Assembly (NCBI GenBank): GCA_021234155.1 | Contig: JAJEKV010000014.1 | Location: 7,581,563 to 7,645,562 of the forward strand | DNA: 64,000 nucleotides | Source: Isoetes taiwanensis | Lineage: Eukaryota; Streptophyta; Lycopodiopsida; Isoetales; Isoetaceae | Reading direction: 5' to 3' | Shown here: positions 2,183-56,185 of the stretch, one piece after another | Position numbering within the stretch: position 1 is the first letter of the stretch | How the letters are laid out: the number at the start of each line of letters is the position of its first letter | Program-made: the position numbers and the translations under genes | Notes under the pieces: model-generated | What the model saw: the letters and a program-made list of their open reading frames with translations, nothing else | Databases searched by the model: none | What the model was told of the DNA's origin: nothing

Positions 2183-4499
2183 GAAGCGGAGGGATTACTT
2201 ATATGGTGTTTCGTGTGTTGCCAAAAGGAGCATGTTAGCAAAATATGAGCGTAGCAACAACCTAGAAGGCTCTCTTATTACGTTATGTTTCTCTTCATAT
2301 TCACAAGGATCAGGTATTGCTCTCTAGTACAAGGGATTGGCCATAAAGAGGCTATAATCACAAAATGAAAGCTAAAAAGTTCCTAAGGTAAGGAGGCCAG
2401 ATTTGCTTAAATACTTGCTCTTTTGAATGTTAGAGAGGACAGCTTCTGAGAATCTGGGGAAAATTGTGAAAAATGATTAGATGTGGTCTTGTATGGACCT
2501 CAAGAATGCAATATAAGACTGAAGTTTTGAAGTTCTATACCAAGAGTTAAATTCATCGATGTTTACGTATGATGTAACGAGAGTTGTGTTGCCCCTATAG
2601 ATGTTTATTGAAACAAGGAATTGAAGCATTTGTTAAACTTGAAATGCATGTTTATTTGTGGTGATTCAAAATTTATGAGCTACAAAAGAAGCGATATATT
2701 TTCCGAAGTGGGCGATTTGGCTTGTGGATCATAATAGCATATGTCGACTTGGGCCATTTTCATATTTATTGGTTTGGTTTTCGCTAATAAGTATGCATGG
2801 TTGCTTTTTGAAACTCCAAGAAACTACTACAGAGTACGAGAATTTCTAAGTGCGGCCGAGCACGTATGATCTTAAAACCAACACGGAAATCAGGTAGGTA
2901 TGGATGAGATTTTATATCTTTTTTCGTGCTTGTGAACATAGGCTTTTTTGGTAACAGGAAAAAGGCGGGCATATCTTTGTAACTAAAATCCGGGCGACTT
3001 TTGTAGAGAAGAAGACAAGGGTTTGGCAATCTAGAGATGCGTAGAAGAAGGTTCCAAGTGAAAGGGAGGAATTCCCAAAAAAAACCCGAGAAAAAGAAGA
3101 CGAGGAGTTTCTTCTTAAAATAAAGATGACTACCTTGGTGGCTCAAGGCAGTTGAGTAAATCCCATTTTTACAATTTCTGGCAGATGTGGGGTTTTCGAA
3201 CTAGCATTTAGTAGTCTGCAGATCCTTTGCTCTTGTTTGTAAATTGCGGGTTATGAGAAGCCGCCTCCCTCTAATCTAAGTCTCCTCGTTTTGGGCATCT
3301 TTGGGGTCCTCATTCCATGTGCCTACATTTAAAGACCCTCGCACGGTACTATTTCTCTTGCTTATCTACATGCAAATTTATTCAAATCTCATGCGATTTA
3401 TATCTTTAAATATATCTTAGCTTAAAATCGAGTTTTGAATTTGTTTTGCACCGCCATGCGAACACCTAGACTTTACGGTTTAGCATATCTTTGTTTGTTT
3501 GGACTTGGTAAGTTTGATATGGACATTTTGCACATGGGTTTACTTGTATATGCACAAACATTTTTTTGCACATTTAACATTTTTTACGCCTCCTCAAACC
3601 TCTCCGGGGAGAAATTGCTTTGTTCAACAGATCCCCTTACTTTTATTATCAACTGCCGGTGCTCTACCTAAAGTGGTTGCGAGTCCTTGTGAAGGTTATC
3701 ATCTCCATGGATATGTCCGTTTCCCTTGAGGGGTAAGAGTGATGTGTTTATATCGTATCCACATCTGCGAGAAGATGTGTCATGTGCGATTCAGCTTTGA
3801 AGTCTTCTTCCATAACCAAATCTTGTGGTGCTTCATGTTGGTCTTTATTGCGGTTGTCAAAATACCGCTATGAACCTTATGTGTATTTTACGTTACATTG
3901 GATCATGTGACAGTCTAGAATGGTTGGCGCAAATCAACTTAGAGTTGACCAGACCATGCCATGGATGCTAGGATTTATAATGCCAACTCCATGCCACATC
4001 TAAAAGGCAAGTTACCTTTGTGTGAAAGGTAGAGGCTAGTTCCCCAAAGCGTGTCTCTCGAGGAGAGGGGTCAGATCATCCGGATTTTTATCTTGGATCA
4101 TCACCTTGGGTCCAAGGCATCCAATAGCTCTCAGTTTGGATGGTTGATCAGATGTAATTGATCAGGATGGTGCCAAGTGCATCGTTGGGTGGAGAGTCTT
4201 TCATTTCTTGTACAATCATCTCTCTTGTTCTTAAAAAAACTTGAAATAGGGATATAAGATCATCCTTTTCTTCGTTAAGCTGCGGAAATTCTTTATTTTG
4301 CATTCTATACCATTGTGCTCACATTCGTTGTGGCAATCGTTTGAATAATGCCTGGCTGTGGTCCTCATCCTCTATAGGATCATGCTCCTTTGACTTTAAG
4401 TATTTGGCATGTTGTCATCTGCCATATTGCAGACTTTTTCATTTATACAAAAATGCTTTTTAGGTATACAAAGCTTTTTGGGTCCATGTTCTTCCAATA
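2183..4499. other. Interior of the inverted-repeat element, no recognisable gene
   Basis: Only short open frames without family resemblance. The sequence is unique within the window, with no retroelement, SINE or tandem signature found. Confidence 0.5.
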
Positions 4500-7099: not shown

Positions 7100-8226
7100 A
7101 GGGCAACCCTAGCCATTGCCAGTGCCAAATGCAAAATGGGAAGTCATAAGTATGGATTTCATTACAGGACTCCCAAGAACTGTAACAGGCAAGGATGCAT
7201 TGATGGTGGTTGTGGATAAGTTGTCCAAGATGGCACACTTTGTGCCTTATAGAACCACAGATACGGCGCTAGACACTGCCATCTTATTCACAAGGGAGAT
7301 TTTTAGACTCCATGGCATGCCTCGCAAGATAATCTCGGATAGAGACTCAAAATTTATGAGTGCATTCTGGCAGGATTTGTTTAGCACCATCCAGACCAAG
7401 CTCTCCATGAGCACGGCCTATCGGACATATGGTCAGACAGAACGCACCAACAGAATCATTGAAGACATGCTAAGGAATTATGTTTGGAATAAGCAGTCTA
7501 AGTGGGATGATTTCATCCACTTAGTGGAGTTCGCCTATGACAGCACGAAGCAGGAATCGTTGCTGATGTCTCCTTTCATGATTAATTATGGGTATCAGTG
7601 CCTGACCCCTGATACATGGCACAACCCAGTGTCAAAGGTGGAAGTCTCCCAGCAAATGCTATCAGATATGCAACAGCTGGTTGAAGAGGTAAGGGGAATT
7701 AGCAGCAAGAAGTGGGCAAAAAGTAGCCGACAGGCACAGGACCATAAGGGAATTTAAGGTAGGCGACAGTGTGTGGTTGAAGATTAAGGTGAAGCAAGCC
7801 AAGCTTCGCATAGGGAACTGCAAGAAGCTTGCTCCTAGGTGGGCAGACCCCTTTAAGATCTTGGAGCGGGTGGGCACTCAGGCCTACAAGCTAGATCTCC
7901 CGGCGCACCTCAAAGTCCATAAGGTCTTCCATGTGAGCCTCTTAAAAAGGCACAACCCAAATCCTGATGAGGTTTTGGAAACTCCAACCCTGTTGGAAAT
8001 GACAGAAGAACAAGTTGAAATTGTGCCTGAATTGCTTCTTGATAAGGCATTCAAGAAGACCAGGAGGTCTCAGTTCCTCCAATATTTGGTCAAGTGAAAC
8101 CTATTGCCCGTGGAAGATGAAACGTGGGTATTGAAGCAGGATTTAGAGAAGCAATACCCGGACTTCATGAGGGAGTTTGATGGGCGAGTCGTCTCCGAGC
8201 TTGTCGACGCCGACTTGCCAGGTGCT
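7100..8226 (+). pseudogene. Ty3/gypsy chromovirus pol 3' part: integrase core, C-terminal domain, chromodomain
   Basis: The integrase core shows MDFITGLPRT (first Asp), ISDRDSKFMSAFW (second Asp) and YGQTERTNRIIEDMLRNY (catalytic Glu), so the D,D-35-E triad is present. The usual HPQTDGQTE is shortened to RTYGQTE. After a frame break near 7757 the C-terminal domain follows (KLAPRWADPFKILERVGTQA, LKVHKVFHVSLLKRH), then a chromodomain-like tail (SQFLQYLVK, DETWVLKQDLEKQYP) interrupted by a stop at 8097. Protease, RT, RNase H and the zinc-finger part of integrase are missing, so the copy is 5'-truncated at about 7100. It is followed by a polypurine tract and LTR of the same element. Confidence 0.88.
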
Positions 8227-24389: not shown

Positions 24390-26436
24390 CAGTTTGCAGA
24401 ACCTCTTTAAACTAACTGCATCAAAAATTCGAACCCATGACATGCTTCGGGACACAAAGTTTGTTCTTGTGGTAGAGAAGATTGCCTTCTCTCTTATATC
24501 TTCTATAAGTTCTCTTTCTTTATATGTCCGTGCCTCTTTGCAAAGACTAGTCTATATTTCCTTGAATTCTTTGCTTGAAGGCAAGACCTCTTCAATCTTT
24601 TTGCCGAAATTGCTACACAAAGTGGAGATGGCATTGCAATGCACTCGAGTCTCCAATGGCCTGCAAGGGAGAGCGTCAGCAACCACATTTAATTTACCTG
24701 GCTTATAGACTATCTCAAGGTCATACTCTTCAAGGAACTCCATCCATCGCCGTTGCCCCAAATTGAGTAGTGGTTGCGTAAAAATATATTGGAGGCTTTG
24801 ATGGTCGGTATCCAACTGGAATTTCCTACCAAGCAGGTAGTGCCTCCAAATATGAAGAGCTCTTACTATGGCCAAGAGTTCTTGATCATGCGTTGGATAA
24901 TGTTACTCGGTATCATTCATTTTCTTAGAGTCATAAACTACCATTCTTCCTTCTTGCATGAGAATTCCACATGTTGCTAGCTTACTAGCATCAGTTGCTA
25001 CAAGTTTATCCTTGCTTGAGTCTGGTAGAGTGAGCACTGGTGCTGTTGTCAAGGCTTCGTTGAGCTTTTCAAAAGAAGCTTGAGCGTTCTCTAGCCAATG
25101 TGCCCTTCAATCTTTTACCTTGACGTTCTTGGTGAGGTCCGACAAAGGGGATGCCCACTTTGCAAAATCCCTTACAAACTTCATGTAGTAGCCTGCTAAC
25201 TCAAGAAAGCTTCTCACTTCCGAGACGTTCTTCGGGTCCGGCCAATCTACTATAGGTTCTATCTTTGACGGGTCCGTCGCTATTCCTTCGGCTGCACAAC
25301 ATGTCCAAGGTACTCAACCTTGGTTGTAGAAAAACGACACTTAGAAAGCTTGCCAAACAAGCGGTGCCATCTTAACTTCTCCAAGGCTTTCCTTAAATGT
25401 GCTACGTATTCTTCCATTGACTTGCTATAGATGAGGATGTCGTTGAAGAAGATGATGACGAACTCATCCAAGAACTCTCTGAAGATGTCGTTCATTAGCC
25501 TCATGAACGTTGCCAAGGCATTTGATAAGCCGAAGGCATGACTATGAATTCATAGTGCCCATACCACGTTCTAAAGGTGGTCTTATGAATGCCTTCTTCC
25601 TTGATTCTTATATGATGGTAGCCTGATCTCAAGTCTATCTTAGAAAAGACTTTTGCTCCTTGGAGTTGATCCATCAAGTCATCTGTCCTAGGCAAGGAGT
25701 ATTTGTTCTTTACCTTCTGCTTGTTCAACTGACAGTAGTTTATACACATCCTTAGACTTCCATTCTTCTTCTTCACAAAGAGAATGGGTACCCCGAGGGG
25801 GGATACGCTTGCCTTGATGAATCTGAGCTCAAGCAATTCTTGCAATTGCTTCTTAAGCTCAGCTAGCTCTGGGGTGCTCATCATGTAGGGGGCCTTGCTG
25901 GTAGGCTTAGTATTTGGTGCTAGTGTGATCTCACACTCCACGCCCCTATAGGGTGGCAACTCATGGATTTCATCCGGAAACACATCATGGAACTCCTTGA
26001 TTAGCCTTGCTACTGGTCTAGGCAAATGATTCAAGCTTGGCTCCCTTTTCCTGACCCAGCTCAATTGCCTCTAGTCTAAGGATATATTCCACCTTGTCTT
26101 TCATTAAGCTTTTGTGCAATTGCTTCAAAGAGATACACTGCATGGTTGAAAGGACTTTCTTACCTTTGACTACAAAGCGATTTCGTCGGGTGCTGTGATG
26201 GAGATTTCGTGCTTGTCACAGTCAATCATGGCTTTAGCTGGCTTCAAGAACTCCATTCCCACTATGAGGTCATATTTACCAATATCTATTACCTCTGCTC
26301 CCATAGTCCATTTGGTTCCGCTGAGGTCTATATCAAATTTGATTCTCTTTCCCTTGATGTGGCAAATCACACCACTTGCCATACTGACCGGCCTGGGTTT
26401 GGACTTAAGGGTCTTGTTCTTCATTAAGGTGGCCAA
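24390..26436 (-). pseudogene. Gypsy protease, reverse transcriptase and RNase H
   Basis: In order on the minus strand: an aspartic-protease-region block (26436-26170; DLIVGMEFLKPAKAMIDCDK, typical of the segment after the protease in chromoviruses); RT (26064-25280; [51 protein letters not shown]); and RNase H (about 25260-24552; YPTHDQELLAIVRALHIWRH, FQLDTDHQSLQYIF). The catalytic YIDD-type box reads FFND, so one aspartate is lost. Several frame shifts and stops confirm a dead copy. Its integrase continues at 17711 after the 6.7 kb interruption. Confidence 0.88.
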
Positions 26437-32420: not shown

Positions 32421-33578
32421 TCTGCTAATGGGCAAAATGCATGCCCAAAACCAAGGGATATGCATCTCCAAAAGTAAGAAAAAGAAGGATAATGCATGCC
32501 AAAAAGCATGGGAGTAGCATTTTATGTATGCATATAGAGCATGCAAAGAGGACAAACTATACAAAAGGAACAAAAGCAATAAACACATGAGATGCGCTTA
32601 CCATTTGCGGTCTTGGATATGCATACACTTCAAAGTATCTTCTAGATGATGGGCGCCTTCCTAGAGGAGCACATAATGGAGGAGAATAGAGAAGAATAAT
32701 AGCTTACCTCTATTGTGAGGGAAGAGCATCTTCAGTTAAAGTGTAACATAATAGAAAATAAAGAATAAAGAAGAAGAATAGCTTACCTCCGTGTAAGTGG
32801 CAAATGCTCTTGCTTCCTCAAAGGCTTAAAAGGCACCTAAAGAAAACGGGTGGAGAGGCTTTGAAAAAGGGACACGTGGCTAGTGCCCATTCAATTTCTA
32901 AAGCACCCCCTCCCCCCCGCCCATTTCGATTTAAATTTCAAATTTTCAATTTCCCCCCAAAATTTTCCTCCCTTGCTTTGTTTGAATTTCGAATCCCCAT
33001 TCACTTCCAGGAATCCTTGAGCGCCCATGAGCGCCCATGTTAGCAACTTCGAGCTTGATGGCGCCTAGCGACTTTGTGCCTCCATTGCCTCTACTATCTT
33101 CTAAATAGAGGTATTTACATATTTTATTGATTATGTAGCTTTCACCAATCGTTTATCTTGTGAACGTTATCGCCTAGTTCTTTTCTTTTCATTGGGGTGT
33201 GATCTTGTGTGATTGACGAGTTACTTTTACTGATAACCTAGTTCTTTTCTTTTCATTGGGGGTGATCTTGTGTCTAGTTCTTTTCTTTTCATTGGGGGTG
33301 ATCTTGTGTGTGATTGACGAGTTACTTTTACTATAGTTATTCCAGTACATAATGCTATATATCCATTCTTATTTAATATTTCTTCCCAATGTTATATATC
33401 CGTTCTTTCTTTGTTTATTGTTTATTATTTCTTTCCTGTATCATGTGCCCCTCTTATTCAGTTAACTTGAATGTTCTATTAGAGCCATCCAAAAATGTTG
33501 TGGTATCACACAAGCCACGATTCATGAGATGCACTTTGCTTCCCTATCTAGGTTATGAAATGCATTTTGCTTTCCTAT
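32421..33578. other. Non-coding; short local tandem repeat
   Basis: About 33175-33325 holds three partial copies of CTAGTTCTTTTCTTTTCATT plus GGGGTGATCTTGTG. No gene found. Confidence 0.5.
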
Positions 33579-33785
33579 AAATTGGGCGATCGCCCAATAT
33601 TCATGAGATGCACTTTGCTTCCTTATCTAGGTCACGAAATGCATTTTTGCTTTCTTATAAATTGGGCTGTTGCCCAATATGTTTATACATGATATAACAC
33701 TACGGGTGAGTTACCTATTGTCATAACATGACATGTCATTATGCATGGCATGCACACTGCTTATGAAATTGGGCGGTCGCCCAAT
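33579..33785 (+). repeat. Three ATTGGGCG palindromes left of the Crypton
   Basis: ATTGGGCGATCGCCCAAT (33581-33598, perfect), ATTGGGCTGTTGCCCAAT (33661-33678) and ATTGGGCGGTCGCCCAAT (33768-33785), about 80-107 bp apart. The spacer repeats ATGAGATGCACTTTGCTTCC. Confidence 0.9.
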
Positions 33786-33954
33786 ATGATAGACAATTAT
33801 GCTGTGACTGCTTACACATATCACGATTCATGACTTTGTTTTGCTCACCGTAACCTTTAAGACCCTGAAATTTCCTAAGATTTCAGGCCTTTTTTTTTTT
33901 TTAGGTAATTTTGTGCTTCAAAGTTTCTGGTGGCGATTTAGTAGCGCCACCAAG

Positions 33955-34160
33955 TTTCCATCACTACCACTTACAGTCACTTACAGTCAAATTATAGTTA
34001 CACTTACAGTCACTTACAGTCAAATTACAGTTACAGTTTCCATCACTTACAGTCAAATTACAGTCAAATTACAGTGCCAAAATTACAGTAAAATTATAGT
34101 GCCAAAATTACAATCAAGTTTTGATTACAGTCAAGTTTTGATTACAATGCCAAAATAGTG
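33955..34160 (+). repeat. Degenerate short tandem repeat (ACTTACAGTC/AAATTACAGT)
   Basis: About 20 units of 9-11 bp based on ACAGTCA and AAATTACAGT. It lies just beyond the 3' end of the Crypton gene. Confidence 0.8.
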
Positions 34161-34278
34161 ATTCCAAAATATCACTAGTCCTCAGGAAATATCTGTTCAC
34201 AATTCACGTTTTCAAATTTGCTCATACCAGTAAAACCAAATTTGTTGTTCACAATTACATTTCTCATACCAGTAGAAA

Positions 34279-36842
34279 CTATGAAGATGATTGACCACCG
34301 ACATTACACTTTTCCATTGCCAGCTTCAACGCGTCAGCTAACATACCTGTAAGCATTGTTGGATCTAGGAGATTATAATTGTAGAAACTACAATTATTAT
34401 TAGTACCACCCAGGAAAGAGTGCCCTCCAGTATTGTTAATCGTCGAATCCACAATCTTCAACCCATTCAATTGTGGATAACGCTTTTCTACTTCATCCCA
34501 GAACTCATTATCAATCTCCGGATCATACTTGACAATATGATCACCATCATTACCCTTAACTTGTACAATCGAATCAACTAACTCCGTCCCCTGCATCCAC
34601 AAAAATATATTAAAATTACAAACATAAACCTAATAAACCTAAAACACAGTGCAAAAATTTACCTTAGTAGAAATATTTTGCCCTGAATCTACATGCATGG
34701 CATCGTCTGAAGCTTCTTTGACCTGAATAAAGTAGCATTAGCAATAAAAAATCAACGACATAAACAAATTCAATTATGAAGAAACAATACCGTGATAGCA
34801 GAACTTCTCTCGGAAACTGTCTCATTTAGCCTTGCTTTTTTCTGAAACAAACAATAAAAATGTCAACGAAAAAGCTTAAATTTAAAAGAACTAAAATCAC
34901 GTACCACAACATTATCGCAAAGGTTGTCAACTTCAATACAATTTTCAGAAATCGGAACAGGAACAGAACATTCTACTATTAGAACCTTTAACATTACAAA
35001 GTGAACGTTTCTTCGCTATCTCCTCGTTCAACACATGCTTATAAGTTCTTACGTTCCCATCACTATCAAAAGGACAAGCCAAAATGCTCATACAAGCATT
35101 AATTTGCAGCTCCTTTGTTCTGTCGTATCTGAAAAAAAATAGAATACATTAGAATAGACGAGAGACACAACATAAAGGATTATCTCACTTACTTTTGGTA
35201 CGATTCAACACGTTTATGTCCTGTAACCAAGCATCCAATTTCTGCAGGCACGCCAGCCAAAGATAACCTCGATACAGTAGTGACCCGACCACTTTTGTTG
35301 CTAAGTGTGCTGTCATTCACAAGACTACCCATTACATTTAACCAGGACCTGATCTTATTCGTCCCAACAGGGACTTTTTGGTACCAAACCTACACAAATA
35401 ATACAAAATAAGTAAATAGAACAAAGTCTTCCTGTAAAAAACAAATATGCTCCAGCTTAAGTCAATAGTACGGAAAGAAGTTTTCACTCAAGAAACACGC
35501 AATGATGCCATTAAACAGTTAAACAGATAATTTGAGACAGAAACATGCATTGAACAATAATAAAAAATTCGAGACATTAAAAAATGTACCACTTTAGATG
35601 GTCGAGTGATAGGCTGCAGAAAGAAGCTTCGAGGCTGAGACCCATCCTTTGGTGGAATATGCAACAAATAACGCTTGTAAGTAAATACAAAGTCCTCTTC
35701 GTGAGTCCATACAGGTGGTCTAAAATGCTCGCTGTCAAACTTTGTCACAGTGCAGCCATAAGTCTTGCTTACCCGTTCATGGTAGGCAACAAACTCACCA
35801 TAGCTATCATTCCCTAAACTGAAATCGCAATCCATTGTAGCATGAAGCTCCCTGTAACCTCTAATACCGAAACGTGTGACCACATAATAGCATAACCTCT
35901 TTTGTAACCCATGAACGTCTGTTACTTGATGCTCTGGATCTGCCAACAATTCTGTTTCAAGTCTAAAAGTTATCTCCGGGGCCTTCCTTTTCTTTGAGCC
36001 AATTCCAGCATGCCTTGCCCTCTCCGCTGCACCAATAAACGCTTTCTGAGCTCTCCCAAACATAGGATGGGTTACAATGTTGAACTTTGGAACTTCAACA
36101 CCCGTCTCTTGCATTATCATCTCCTGCTTCTTTCTGACAATTCTTCCAACTGTCTTGAAAAGATTGTTTAAACTACAAAACAGAAAGGAGAAAACTGATC
36201 AGACACTAAAGCGAAAATTAAAAAAGAAATAAAAAAACAAATTAAATATTTATACCTGCTGGCAGGGTACATCTGCCCATTATTCTTCTTTGTTTGTATG
36301 AGGAAACGTACCAACATTTCATTCAGATCAGGATAAGAGAGATCTTCAATAGGAATAGAGGTATCTTTCTTTGCAAACCTTCTCCACTCATCGAACTTCC
36401 CACGGGCCCAATTAGTTGCTTTTGCAGACCGATCCCTACTGCCATTGTACACATCGTGCATAATGTTGGGATCAAGTGGAAGAAACCTGCTGGATTCATC
36501 ATCCAGAATCTCATCTTGAATCTTAGTCCCTGTGTCACTATCAAGAACCTTATAGTCTTCATTAAACCAGGGTTCGTTGGATATTTCTCGCATAAAAGCT
36601 TCTTGTTCATCATTGATATTTGCATCTAAGAATGCATCCAGATCTTGAACATCTTCAATGTCACCTTCTAGAGTTGGATGCAAAGTAAAACTTGGTTTTT
36701 CTACCTCAGAAACCTGACCAGACTCAACAGAATCCATACCACTACAATGATAACTTGAATCTCCATTAGAAACTATCTGGAAACTAAGGAACAAAATACA
36801 TACCAACACTACAACCTGTAGTGAAATAACCTGCAAACACAA
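34279..36842 (-). CDS. Crypton-like tyrosine recombinase, multi-exon
   Basis: The N-terminal exon ends at 36256 (SAKATNWARGKFDEWRRFAK is typical of the Crypton/DUF3504 N-terminal domain), with donor GTATAAAT. Exon 36172-35590 has LNNLFKTVGRIVRKKQEM and RFGIRGYRELHATMD, carrying the probable first catalytic Arg. Exon 35389-35193 has LSNKSGRVTTVSRL (second Arg) and TGHKRVESYQK. Exon from 35128 begins by completing Lys, then Tyr, placing Tyr nine residues after His, as in XerD-type recombinases. A C-terminal exon (34599-34279) ends NNNCSFYNYN. All three inner junctions have GT..AG signals and keep frame. Cryptons move by tyrosine-recombinase chemistry. The His of the H-x-x-R box is Lys here. Element ends were not found; a domesticated gene is possible. 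Confidence 0.8.
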
Positions 36843-37639
36843 ATAAAATTTTAGTAAACACTTAAAAAAGAAACATTATGATCAAGCAGGTAAAACCATA
36901 CCTTCAACACCTTAAACTTTCCACTTGAAAAAAAACTCGAATAAGAGCTGCAATTAGCAACAATTCTTAGACCACTAGCAGCTGCTGTCATTGAAAAAAC
37001 AAGAAAGAAAATATTCCACATCCACTGCAAGTAATGCCTACAAGAAACAACTTGTAACCTGAAAAAGAAAACAAGAATTAAACTAAAACTTAGAATAAAT
37101 CATAAACAAGCATGAAATACCGAAAACTTGTAACCTAGAGACAGGAAATACCTTAAAATATTGCTGTGTTCCACAATATTTCTTCAGACGACCTTCATTG
37201 TAACGGACTTTCGCCAAGATTGTTGCAATAGAACTCACAAGCAAAGTAACTTCGAAGAAATCTTTACTGTAACGACTCTTAAGCAATAAAGCTTCACCTT
37301 AAGACATCTTCACAAAGATCACTCAAACACAGCTCCACAACCACACTAACCGTCAAAAATCGACAATAGAAAACGAGCGCCAACGGAAAGAACAGCAGAA
37401 TCAATCAAAGTTGCCAGAGATCTGTAATCTTCAACGGATGTTCTGGAAAATGAGCCGCTATAACAAAAACAAGCTTAAAATCTGTCTACCAAACCACATG
37501 CGCCAAACCAGCAGCTAAAAAGTCGATGCAGGACCCTAGCGCCATAGTTCCGGCGACAGAGCTTGGACGAAATGGAAGAGAGAGAAAATTGTGACGTGGC
37601 GTCAGAAAAGGGAAATTTCGGGTCTAAAAGGTTACGGCG
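36843..37639. other. 5' flank of the Crypton gene
   Basis: Probably leader exons and promoter on the minus strand. A coding-like block MLKSRYSKDFFEVTLLVSSI lies at 37286-37083, of unknown status. Confidence 0.35.
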
Positions 37640-37767
37640 GGAAACTCCACTCGCAGGAGGTTTCCTGGAAGAAACCCCTGGTGGCGGCGCCGCTCGCGGC
37701 TCCCGCCGCTCGCGACGGCGCCGCCAGGGGTTTCTTCCAGAAAACCTCCTGCTCGCGGAAGTTTCCC
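37640..37767. repeat. GC-rich hairpin 1
   Basis: Core arms 37655-37698 and 37711-37750 pair almost throughout: AGGAGGTTT, CTGGAAGAAACCCCTGG, GGCGGCGCCG and TCGCG, with small indels. The loop is near GCTCCCGCC. Weaker pairing continues outwards to GGGAAACT / AGTTTCCC. Confidence 0.92.
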
Positions 37768-37770
37768 CTT

Positions 37771-38140
37771 CCAAATTGGGCCCAATTTGGTGTTTGTCTG
37801 ACTGCTTATATGCCTCATCAAATTGGGCGGTCGCCCAATTTGGTATGGCAGTTTGTCGGACTGCTTACATGCATCCCTGTTTATCACTGTTTACTGGTCA
37901 TAATATAACAATTGATTATGCATGTCATATACTGATATCATATCAAAGAGAAGAGTTCGTGAGATGTAGTAATCTACCCAGAAAGCATTTTATATTCACC
38001 ATTTAAATTGGGCGACTGCCCTATTTACAAGCTTTTTCACCAGAAACTTCCATATCTATCATCCCCTGTTCACAGATTAAGATTCAAAAGATTCATTTAA
38101 ATCCTTATTTTTAAACCGTTTAAATTGGGCGATTTTGCCA
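37771..38140 (+). repeat. CAAATTGGGCG palindromes right of the Crypton
   Basis: CCAAATTGGGCCCAATTTGG (37771-37790, perfect), CAAATTGGGCG..CGCCCAATTTG (37819-37842), a damaged copy at 38005-38026, and a half at 38121-38131. The spacer ACTGCTTAYATGC resembles that of the left group near 33750. Confidence 0.88.
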
Positions 38141-53022: not shown

Positions 53023-53554
53023 CTTGGTGTCCCCCTAAGAAATATTATGGTTTATTTTTTCTATTTTCCTAATTATATTGGAGAGCATTTATCCTTCATG
53101 AATATAGAATCCAAGTGTATCTTGGAGTCCACGTAGACCTATCGCATTATGCCACGTCATTTGGAGAGAGAGAGTAGGAAATCTCGATTAGGGTTCCTCG
53201 AATCAGTTCGTGAGATCTCGGGCGTGTCTCCGAGATCGCCCTGAGATCTCCCTATTCAAGCGAGGTGTCTGGTGGTTTTCCAAGGCAATAGATGCACGAT
53301 TTGAGCTCGAGATCCAAGGTTTAGGGTTCATGTGGGCGTGTGAGTTCAAATTTGAATTTCCCTCATTGCATTTGCTCGGAAAATTTTGAATCATAGTTCA
53401 AATTTGAAATTCCCTCATTGCATTTGCCCGGAAAAATTTGAATTGCAGTTCAATATTGAATTTCCCTTACTCTAAAGTGCTCGGAAATTTTGAATTGTAG
53501 TTCAAATTTGAATTTCCCGCACCTTAAACATTTGAATTCAGTATAAAATCAACA

Positions 53555-56185
53555 ATGGAGTTTCTGGGATGGTTTCTGCTAGCTGCAGTCATTGCCATGG
53601 TTCAAATGAGAATTACCTTGCCTTCATCAGAATTTGCAAAATCTACTGTCAGCAAAGAAGAACATAATGCTTTGAGATTGAGTGGAGCCAAGCATGCTGA
53701 TATCTGGACAGTAGGGGAAATTTACCCACGAAATCCATTCACAGGTAAATGTCCAAATTTCAATTGTGTAACAAGCCTTGTGAGGTTTGTTTGTGAGGGA
53801 AAGTCTGGGCTGCTAGGCTACTGTGAGAGCCTGGCACAATACAGTTTGCAATTAATTTATCAAAATAACAATTTGTCACATTGCTTGTATTTGAGAGATA
53901 CGGAGTTGTCTAAATTGAGAGATCAGTTAGAGCAGCAAAGAAGGAAAAAGGATAAGCAGGTCAGCCAGCTAACAAAAAGGAATTCTCAATTGGAGGAAGA
54001 TATTGTGATGTTTCAGCAATGTGTCAAGCAATTAGAGTTTGGAAGACTTTCAGCAATGGCAGATGCTAGAAAGAATATGAAACAGTGTCGTGTCTTGCAG
54101 AAGAGATTGGAGAGATCAAAGAGGACTGTTCTTGGTGCTCGAGAGAGAATAAAAGAATTCAAGCCAATTGAAACACTTAATATTAAGTGTGGGGCTGCTC
54201 GAAGGAGAATTTATGCTATGAAGCAAGTGCTACAGTCAAGTAAGGGAAAGAAGGGTGTGAGGAAGAATGTTGGCAACATTGTAAGAAGTATTGCCACAAA
54301 AGAAGAAATCATTTCAATGTTAAATTCACCTGAGAATTCTGATTTGAATAAATCTGTTATGGACCTGCTTCTTCATGAGGTGAGTTCTAAAATGGATGCA
54401 AATAAAATTCAAAATGTATGTGATTCTGCTGGAATTAGTACAGCAGCTTATAGATTGCTCTTCAAGCAATTCTCGGATGCATTGAACATGGTTGGGACAA
54501 ATAAAGTTATGGTTCCAAGGCCACACCATCTGAATCTTGTCAGGGCAAGGAGAAACACCATGGTTGAAGAGATCATTGGAGGAATGCACTCGATTAAGTG
54601 TGAAGCACCATTCACTATTTCAGGGCCAAGATCTAAGAAAGGTATCCCCAATGACAGCAAAATTATAAGTCACCATGAGAGAGACAATTTATGGTTTGAC
54701 TTGGAGAGCATTCTGAAATTTATGGTAGTTTTCTATAATATACATGAAGATAGCATTCAAAACAGCCAGCTGGAGGTTTGTTTGAAGCTTGATGAAATGG
54801 AACTCAGCCACAAAGTCAAGTATGAAAGGGTGTCTTTGACACTCATGAATCGGGCATTTGCTGCAGATTATGAACAGCAAAAAATGTTAAAGAGGAAGGA
54901 TAGAGACCCCGAGTGGTTTTCAATTCAATCCGAGGATCATACCTGGTGGTTGGGCCTTTTCCAAGTTCAGAAGGAGAATCATGAAGTGCTGAAATGGGTC
55001 TTTGAGCAGACGGGTATACCTATGCTTGTGGACAGCTATAATAAAGGTAAGAAGGTTTGTGTTGAAGGTTTTGGTTCTTTTTTGATTAATTTCCACCTGG
55101 CATCAGATTTGAAAACTGAGAAAGCCATGTATAATATTAGGTCTTCTGGTGCAAAGACTTCTCGAATGTGCTTGTATTGCTGTGAGACTTTGAAAGAAAC
55201 AAAAAATGGCCCCTCAAAGAGTACTCTCAAATGTAATCAGAGTTTAGCTCCTGATAGACACCTGAAGGATAAAGATCTGATCCCAATTTTGCCTATTCCC
55301 TTGGATAGAGTTCACATTTGTACACTGCATGCTCTTGTTAGGATAGTAGAAAAGATGATTTGGCTTTCAGAGTGCTTTGTCTGGAACATTAAGGATGAGA
55401 AGCAATGGAAAGAAGCTATTGAACGAGTGGAGACATTCTTATCAACTGCAGGATTGCATGGTGGATGTGTGAAGCTGGAAATGGATACTAAACAGTCCTC
55501 CAACGGAAGAAGCTCGGTTCCAACCAAGGTGTCTATTGGAGGTGAGAGGGCAAAGCACTTTCTATGCAATGAAAGTGCCAAGGTAGGTGTATGGGACTTT
55601 GGGAAAAAACTTGTAGATGCAGAGATGGACAGAACCACTAATGGAAGAACCAGAAAAAGGCATGCATGGAATGCCTTGTCCAACTTAAATTTGTTGTTGC
55701 AGAAACAGTACTTTACTGCTGAACAGAAGCTGGAATTCCGAGCTGCTGTTAATGCATTTACAAAGGCATACATAGATGCATGGGGGGAGAGCGAAGTTAC
55801 ACATTATGTGCATATAATTTTTGCACATGGGCCTTGGTTTGCAGATAGGTATGGCAGCTTGGCCATATGGAACACACAAGGCATGGTAAAATCACATAAG
55901 CAAGCCAAGATGGTTTTCAATAGGAAGACTCAACGAGGCGGCAGTAATCTAACTTCTCGTCAATCCAATCCATTGGTCCAAATGGGACAATGGTTCTATA
56001 GAGGAGTGCTAGCAAGACATGAAGAGAATGTGGCAAGACGTGCCTCGCCAATTTTGCATGATGCAATGGCAACTGCTATGAAGAGACGTCGACAACGGGC
56101 TTGGTCAGAATCGAATGGCGGGAACAAACTAAATGAGTGGAGAAGCAAGAGACAAAGAATTGGAAAAAGGTATATTGTTATCTGA
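53555..56185 (+). CDS. 876-residue transposase-like protein of an unnamed family
   Basis: Uninterrupted, with an ATG start after an AT-rich leader with TTTGAATTTCCC-type repeats. Residues 1-20 are hydrophobic (MEFLGWFLLAAVIAMVQM), odd for a DNA-acting enzyme. Residues 120-200 form a coiled coil (LRDQLEQQRRKKDKQVSQLT). A C-terminal region resembles large DDE-type ORFs of animal and fungal repeats in order of motifs: LKLDEMEL (Asp413), FHLASDLKTEKAMYN (Asp518), CLYCC (539-543), PIPLDRVHICTLHALVRIVE (Asp584, His593), and HYVHIIFAHGPWF with SHKQAK (about 760-785). These acidic residues are candidates only; a final Glu is not obvious. The lysine-rich tail suggests nuclear entry. Confidence 0.6.
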   Translation: MEFLGWFLLAAVIAMVQMRITLPSSEFAKSTVSKEEHNALRLSGAKHADIWTVGEIYPRNPFTGKCPNFNCVTSLVRFVCEGKSGLLGYCESLAQYSLQLIYQNNNLSHCLYLRDTELSKLRDQLEQQRRKKDKQVSQLTKRNSQLEEDIVMFQQCVKQLEFGRLSAMADARKNMKQCRVLQKRLERSKRTVLGARERIKEFKPIETLNIKCGAARRRIYAMKQVLQSSKGKKGVRKNVGNIVRSIATKEEIISMLNSPENSDLNKSVMDLLLHEVSSKMDANKIQNVCDSAGISTAAYRLLFKQFSDALNMVGTNKVMVPRPHHLNLVRARRNTMVEEIIGGMHSIKCEAPFTISGPRSKKGIPNDSKIISHHERDNLWFDLESILKFMVVFYNIHEDSIQNSQLEVCLKLDEMELSHKVKYERVSLTLMNRAFAADYEQQKMLKRKDRDPEWFSIQSEDHTWWLGLFQVQKENHEVLKWVFEQTGIPMLVDSYNKGKKVCVEGFGSFLINFHLASDLKTEKAMYNIRSSGAKTSRMCLYCCETLKETKNGPSKSTLKCNQSLAPDRHLKDKDLIPILPIPLDRVHICTLHALVRIVEKMIWLSECFVWNIKDEKQWKEAIERVETFLSTAGLHGGCVKLEMDTKQSSNGRSSVPTKVSIGGERAKHFLCNESAKVGVWDFGKKLVDAEMDRTTNGRTRKRHAWNALSNLNLLLQKQYFTAEQKLEFRAAVNAFTKAYIDAWGESEVTHYVHIIFAHGPWFADRYGSLAIWNTQGMVKSHKQAKMVFNRKTQRGGSNLTSRQSNPLVQMGQWFYRGVLARHEENVARRASPILHDAMATAMKRRRQRAWSESNGGNKLNEWRSKRQRIGKRYIVI

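Follow-up and report, generated by a model that had tools for sequence, protein, structure and literature searches.

The locus described here raises the question of whether a Crypton-like tyrosine recombinase gene can belong to the genome of a land plant and, if so, whether as a transposon or as a domesticated gene. Crypton hosts have been reported among fungi, animals and stramenopiles, and one DUF3504 protein has been noted in a green-algal mitochondrion (sections of PMC3212892). The word 'Crypton' is absent from the main text of a 2022 review of land-plant transposons (PMC9033089), and a section of an Arabidopsis review states that Cryptons had not been described there (PMC7385966). The plant section of another paper lists Cryptons among DNA transposons and calls them rare in eukaryotes (PMC11630846), and excerpts of automated tables contain tiny plant Crypton fragments (24 pieces and 1,719 bases in Dracaena, one to two pieces in Brassica), with no elements or ends. 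The word is also absent from the main texts of the Isoetes genome papers PMC8566536 and PMC10541799. In the open-licence literature searched, no description of a land-plant Crypton element was found.

Here, we analyse a window of Isoetes taiwanensis DNA (the whole stretch of 64,000 nucleotides) together with the genome from which it comes. We consider, with a probability of roughly 0.83, that the window contains a member of a DNA transposon family which encodes a Crypton-like tyrosine recombinase and has multiplied in this lycophyte genome. A multiplied plant family with defined ends extends the known host range of tyrosine recombinase (YR) transposons.

Gene structure

The minus strand of the window contains, at 36737-34279, a spliced gene for a DUF3504-type YR (Table 1). 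The motifs and the three splice junctions named in the first-pass annotation are found on this strand, and the junctions at 36256/36172, 35590/35389 and 35193/35128 are all of the GT...AG type, with an alternative donor possible 3 bases upstream of 35590. Splicing from the ATG at 36737 yields an open product of 468 amino acids. The extent originally annotated, 34279..36842, does hold the gene motifs, but the element itself runs further, from 37772 to 33850.

Exons are conserved in sibling copies, while introns differ in length and letters. Introns 1 and/or 3 are kept in the genomic copies of each lineage examined, and copies L054 and L078 are without intron 2. Compared with L004 and L005, the window copy carries a short out-of-frame deletion in exon 4, beyond the YR domain, and its C-terminus is broken as a result.

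Table 1. Positions of the element, its ends and its exons in the window.
Feature	Position	Strand	Content or basis
Whole element	33850..37772	-	3923 bp; ends from alignment of four near-full-length copies and from empty site L075
Left GG of 2-bp shared core	37771..37772	.	single GG in empty site L075
5' terminal palindrome (E5 - loop - reverse complement of E5)	37639..37766	-	62-nt arms, 81% complementary
Internal inverted copy of 3' end	37611..37636	-	directly inside the palindrome
Coding exon 1	36256..36737	-	N-terminal part, start ATG 36737; conserved in L004, L009, L010
Coding exon 2	35590..36172	-	Arg265 (FGIRG), Lys297 (ERVSK)
Coding exon 3	35193..35389	-	KSGR (Lys387, Arg390), GHK (His413)
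Coding exon 4	34905..35128	-	Tyr422 (YDR); short frame-shifting deletion downstream in window copy
C-terminal exons 5-7	34841-34791, 34722-34663, 34590-34279	-	predicted from splice sites common to siblings
3' terminus (E3)	33850..33876	-	alignment of copies, inverted-repeat comparison
Right GG of shared core	33848..33849	.	empty site L075

The recombinase protein

A Pfam scan of the spliced protein and of ten frames of the element returned only DUF3504 and one insignificant match (E 0.068). With neither a reverse transcriptase nor a DDE transposase beside its YR gene, the element agrees with Cryptons in this character. The DUF3504 match covers residues 322-374 of the spliced protein and spans the 35590/35389 junction, and none of the ten separate frames matches DUF3504 at E <= 0.1. 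The relationship to DUF3504, a further Crypton character, is upheld by the E-value of 1.9e-5, but its 25.2 bits lie below the curated cut-off of 29.7. An N-terminus of animal type, which had also been proposed, is not borne out by Pfam, which has no match before residue 322. DUF3504 matches five of eight lineages of the family at E <= 0.1.

Alignment of the YR from these eight lineages (38-87% identical to the first row) reveals the order R265 (FGIRG), K297 (ERxSK), K387-x-x-R390, H413 and Y422. K297 and R390 are present in all eight lineages, R265 in six (Gln in L077, Lys in L057), H413 in seven (Gln in L078) and Y422 in all seven rows extending that far. The catalytic R...R...Y series of Cryptons is accordingly in place, and the position of the box-II His of their R-H-R-Y tetrad is taken by Lys in seven lineages and Arg in one. 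Lys at this position is presumably also the state of type IB topoisomerases. R390 and H413 are separated by 23 residues and H413 and Y422 by nine, spacings which we take to be the same as those of XerD. The original reading, that a plant genome carries a spliced gene for a Crypton-like YR of DUF3504 type in which Tyr follows His by nine residues, is supported.

Codon comparisons by the NG86 method give dN/dS ratios of 0.04 (dS 1.11) between the window copy and L009, and of 0.05 (dS 0.91) between the window copy and L010. The motifs are thus more than a chance arrangement, as had been argued, and the YR exons have been under purifying selection across lineages; recombinase function was therefore maintained until recently. 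Closer copies show few differences, and their ratios are to be read accordingly (L004: dS 0.032, dN 0.003, ratio 0.09; L005: dS 0.029, dN 0.008, ratio 0.27).

Searches beyond the genome returned no convincing relatives. In the protein database, none of 4482 candidates reached E <= 0.001 with the spliced protein as query, and none of 7996 scored reached E <= 0.01 with the eight lineages. Sequence searches of the PDB gave no match for the spliced protein and two chance-level matches for the lineages, one a haemoglobin. None of 25 pattern matches in viral contigs was confirmed, and Rfam gave no match. Two AlphaFold2 models have low mean pLDDT values of 46.0, from a row containing intron-encoded residues between exons, and 45.7, from a row without the Tyr exon. 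Foldseek found nothing significant with either of them (lowest E 0.51 and 0.11); its hits included Hermes transposase at E 0.11 and the Cre-type recombinase 5u91 at E 2.6.

A profile of the YR lineages also finds L001 (C31:89002-92481) and L002 (C606:41185-44682), with E-values calculated for a set of 24 frames. Both lie above the curated DUF3504 cut-off, at 33.4 and 31 bits respectively, and contain in-frame stops. This genome thus holds another recombinase-like family of DUF3504 type, clearly distinct from the first.

Copies in the host genome

The genome searched comprises 1,658,258,908 bases in 1110 contigs. A DNA search in which 40 of 338 candidates were scored gave at least 111 matches, and a protein search in which 91 of 2855 candidates were scored gave at least 199 exon matches. 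Besides the window's own, there are at least three near-full-length copies, at 97, 94 and 90% identity, and many further copies have diverged. Copies at unrelated loci share fixed ends, and short derivatives, such as L064 (about 0.8 kb) and the units of L063, retain both of them. When up to 3 mismatches are allowed, 40 bases taken from the 5' end match the genome at 36 places, among which one element may count repeatedly, against none for the reversed control.

These copies bear on the choice between a transposon and a domesticated gene, which the first-pass annotation had left undecided. Domestication of a Crypton-derived gene by the host would be in keeping with the purifying selection described above, and DUF3504 has been domesticated in animals (sections of PMC3212892). 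However, a host gene of this kind would sit badly with many fixed-end copies, short derivatives, empty insertion sites (see below) and a frame-shift in the window copy, and we regard it as highly improbable; for the window copy itself it is refuted.

The other concern was that the assembly might contain contaminating DNA from a fungus, an oomycete or an animal. The plant culture was non-axenic and non-plant contigs had to be removed (sections of PMC8566536), and fungi and stramenopiles are described Crypton hosts. Yet related exons and copies are spread over many contigs, several of them longer than 20 Mb, and insertions sit in repeats that recur in the same genome. Four LEAFY SAM-domain loci in the genome and PPR repeats within the same 64 kb indicate that the DNA comes from a land plant or a closely related alga. 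A foreign source is therefore rejected as exceedingly improbable. With many copies of a mobile element, including three near-full-length siblings, the locus is thus best read as a transposon rather than as a host gene or a contaminant.

Several other features lie in the window. A 327-aa open frame on the minus strand at 20414-21394 matches Pfam DUF7869 (E 5e-32) and perhaps encodes another mobile-element protein. Fragments of a retrotransposon integrase (rve; 7113-7754, plus strand) and of a reverse transcriptase (RVT_1; 25504-26070, minus strand) are also present, as is an 885-aa open frame on the plus strand at 53528-56182, for which Tropomyosin is the only match, a weak one that falls below the cut-off (E 0.0021).

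Insertion sites

The element begins with GGAAGGGG at its 5' end (37772) and finishes with AAAGGTTAC at its 3' end (33850). L075, a paralogous site without the insertion, aligns to the flanks of the window copy with 350 of 397 columns identical and reads AATTT[GG]TGAG. At the occupied site, the left junction reads AATTT[GG]AAGGGG and the right junction GGTTAC[GG]TGAG. This paralogous site shows that the insertion of the window copy was conservative. The empty site of L064 (C1100:17387726-17388167, 98%) reads AAGGAAT[G]AGTG, with a shared core of one G. A presumed empty site of L006 is compatible, but without the G and with a diverged left side; four places span this joint (82-88%), of which one was read. 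The three matches for L008 (71-74%) were excluded, since they reach no more than 14-16 bases to the left of the joint.

As in Cryptons, target-site duplication beyond the shared core is absent at the empty sites L075 and L086. Terminal direct repeats of 4 to 6 bp, another Crypton character, are replaced by a core of GG in the window copy and G in L064. In a hand-made tally of left flanks at 18 distinct loci, one of them (L078) from another family, T immediately precedes the element at 15 loci, C at two and A at one. The tally omits repeated identifiers of the same places, L018, L020 and L060 as near-identical duplicates of L017, the tandem L063 copies, L029/L056/L073 with their atypical 5' end (C1056:7232880), and any copy for which no 5' end was recovered. 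A 22-base palindrome, AAATTGGGCGACCGCCCAATTT with variants, occurs several times in the repeat that hosts the window element (33565-33787 and 37806-38026).

Foldback ends

The 5' terminal palindrome of the window copy has a DNA fold with z = -9.7, equalled by none of 200 shuffles, and its inner arm continues into the inverted copy of the 3' end. Because the palindrome arm adjoins this inverted copy, the joined ends and their inner copies would fold into one hairpin. In L063, a natural tandem junction has a computed fold of -103 kcal/mol (z -16.8). Among 11 copies whose 5' ends were folded, ten have z values from -4.5 to -17.4, and the second element at L005 has -1.9.

End layout was examined in named loci among the diverged copies. 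Eight of the nine terminal types examined have the foldback layout, several of them unrelated in letters: the window, L008, L064 and L063 types are related, whereas L078, the second element at L004 and L077 are not. For each of the seven types compared, the best match of the 3' end is to the inner copy of its own type; the margin is narrow for the window type (22 against 21) and clear for the other six. In an eighth type, L079, a hairpin near 361-463 precedes a stretch, 464-493, whose inverse lies at 3491-3519. L076, one of four distant lineages fetched, has no foldback layout in the stretch examined, and L077 has a second inverted 3'-end copy about 0.5 kb further inward.

Many window-family copies have an inner 3'-end copy that is shorter near the junction (GGNGGGAAAC versus GGAAGGGGAAAC). 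A mismatch between T (outer) and A (inner), 10-13 bases from the end, recurs in the window copy, L007, L008 and L064, and may mark a strand or a protein contact. At C1056:7232880, the outer 5' end follows GGGTTAC and carries the sequence otherwise seen in the inner inverted copy, which would fit conversion or flipping of the hairpin.

Published Crypton ends are unlike these. Cryptons are without terminal inverted repeats, and here an inverted copy of E3 lies inside the 5' end, itself non-terminal. As E3 and this inner copy resemble inverted repeats, the element could be an ordinary cut-and-paste (DDE) transposon that has acquired a foldback and carries the YR gene as a passenger. We consider this very unlikely, given that the repeat is non-terminal at the 5' end, that duplications at the two clear empty sites do not exceed 1-2 bp, and that the YR is the sole enzyme recognised in the element and is under selection.

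End-to-end arrays

The joined-end sequence AAAGGTTACGGAAGGGGAAACTTCC occurs 17 times in the genome with up to 3 mismatches, against none for the reversed control. Fourteen of these occurrences lie within 22 kb of contig C1019 (4.9907-5.0127 Mb), where an 8.4-kb part of the array consists of ten full units of 723-783 bp that are 86-99% identical. L004 and L005 each run directly into the 5' terminus of another, different foldback element, and L078 ends at another hairpin. A further near-perfect hairpin with 56-nt arms lies at L078 3908-4024, 0.3-0.4 kb past the abutting one. Growth of the C1019 array could be explained by unequal crossing-over, which leaves the mixed junctions unexplained.

Proposed mechanism

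We infer a circular intermediate. The YR of the transposon would join the two ends into a circle with the junction ...AAAGGTTAC|GGAAGGGG..., for which the expected sequence is GGTTACGGAAGGGG. This circle would then recombine with a short target, usually T followed by G, and insert without target duplication beyond the 1-2 bp shared core. New copies would also insert at the end of a resident element, since resident ends carry the same kind of site, and end-to-end arrays would build up. The family may be active at present. Its near-identical copies and the short junction make the element directly testable.

The joined ends and the inverted copy in the 5' palindrome would form one long hairpin, so that a recombination site could arise even when just one strand is available or while the junction is being replicated. 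The foldback layout suggests a service to the recombinase, and its retention suggests, as the least certain step of this scheme, that the joined site is folded when it functions or when it is copied. A stronger version holds that the YR of the family recognises a folded, attC-like site, the layout being kept while letters are replaced between families and elements are collected end to end like cassettes. We regard this version as doubtful, at rather worse than even odds by a wide measure. If true, it would mean structure-guided YR recombination with cassette-like accretion in a plant nucleus.

The same layout could instead be a relic. A DIRS-type retrotransposon that had lost its reverse transcriptase and was copied through RNA in trans would leave a foldback derived from its internal complementary region, which in DIRS elements is an inverted copy of the joined ends (sections of PMC3266345); a region complementary to the joined ends is indeed present in the window element. 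Target duplications are absent in both, and the lack of intron 2 in L054 and L078 would also fit. However, introns 1 and/or 3 persist in genomic copies of each lineage examined and argue against an RNA intermediate, and neither a reverse transcriptase nor one with RNase H was detected in the element frames scanned. Moreover, the YRs of DIRS and Ngaro elements do not match DUF3504, according to sections of PMC3212892, but the window protein does. A DIRS derivative is thus improbable, if somewhat less so than a DDE transposon, and we retain the reading as a Crypton-like DNA transposon. That an element lacking reverse transcriptase has an inverted copy resembling that of DIRS bears on the origin of DIRS-type ends.

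Comparison with known systems

The element shares with CryptonS, CryptonA and CryptonF a DUF3504-type YR, the lack of reverse transcriptase and of target-site duplication, and non-autonomous derivatives (sections of PMC3212892). TATGG at the left junctions of L004 and L008 equals the terminus reported for most CryptonS elements (same sections). It differs from Cryptons in its plant host, several introns, Lys for the box-II His, a core of 1-2 bp, a foldback 5' end with an inverted 3'-end copy, and end-to-end arrays. Terminal direct repeats of 4 to 6 bp have been described in fungal and stramenopile Cryptons and, in the sections cited, were not found in animal ones (PMC3212892). We use the term Crypton-like, short of formal membership, because the element has neither the box-II His nor the 4- to 6-bp direct repeats and carries an inverted copy of its 3' end.

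With DIRS1-like retrotransposons, the element has in common a YR, an internal copy complementary to the joined outer ends, and integration into a very short target that is not duplicated (sections of PMC3266345). In contrast to them, no reverse transcriptase, RNase H or methyltransferase was found in it and introns are present; its inner copy lies in a hairpin beside the 5' end, and inverted terminal repeats of the DIRS kind are absent.

The third comparison is with integrons, from which the element differs in being eukaryotic, in having no integron platform, in carrying its YR gene inside the moving unit, and in a folding predicted by computation. Like the integron attC site, it would have a YR site able to form on a folded strand, in which layout is kept over letters, and, as in integron cassette arrays, its units accumulate end to end (PMC2727003).
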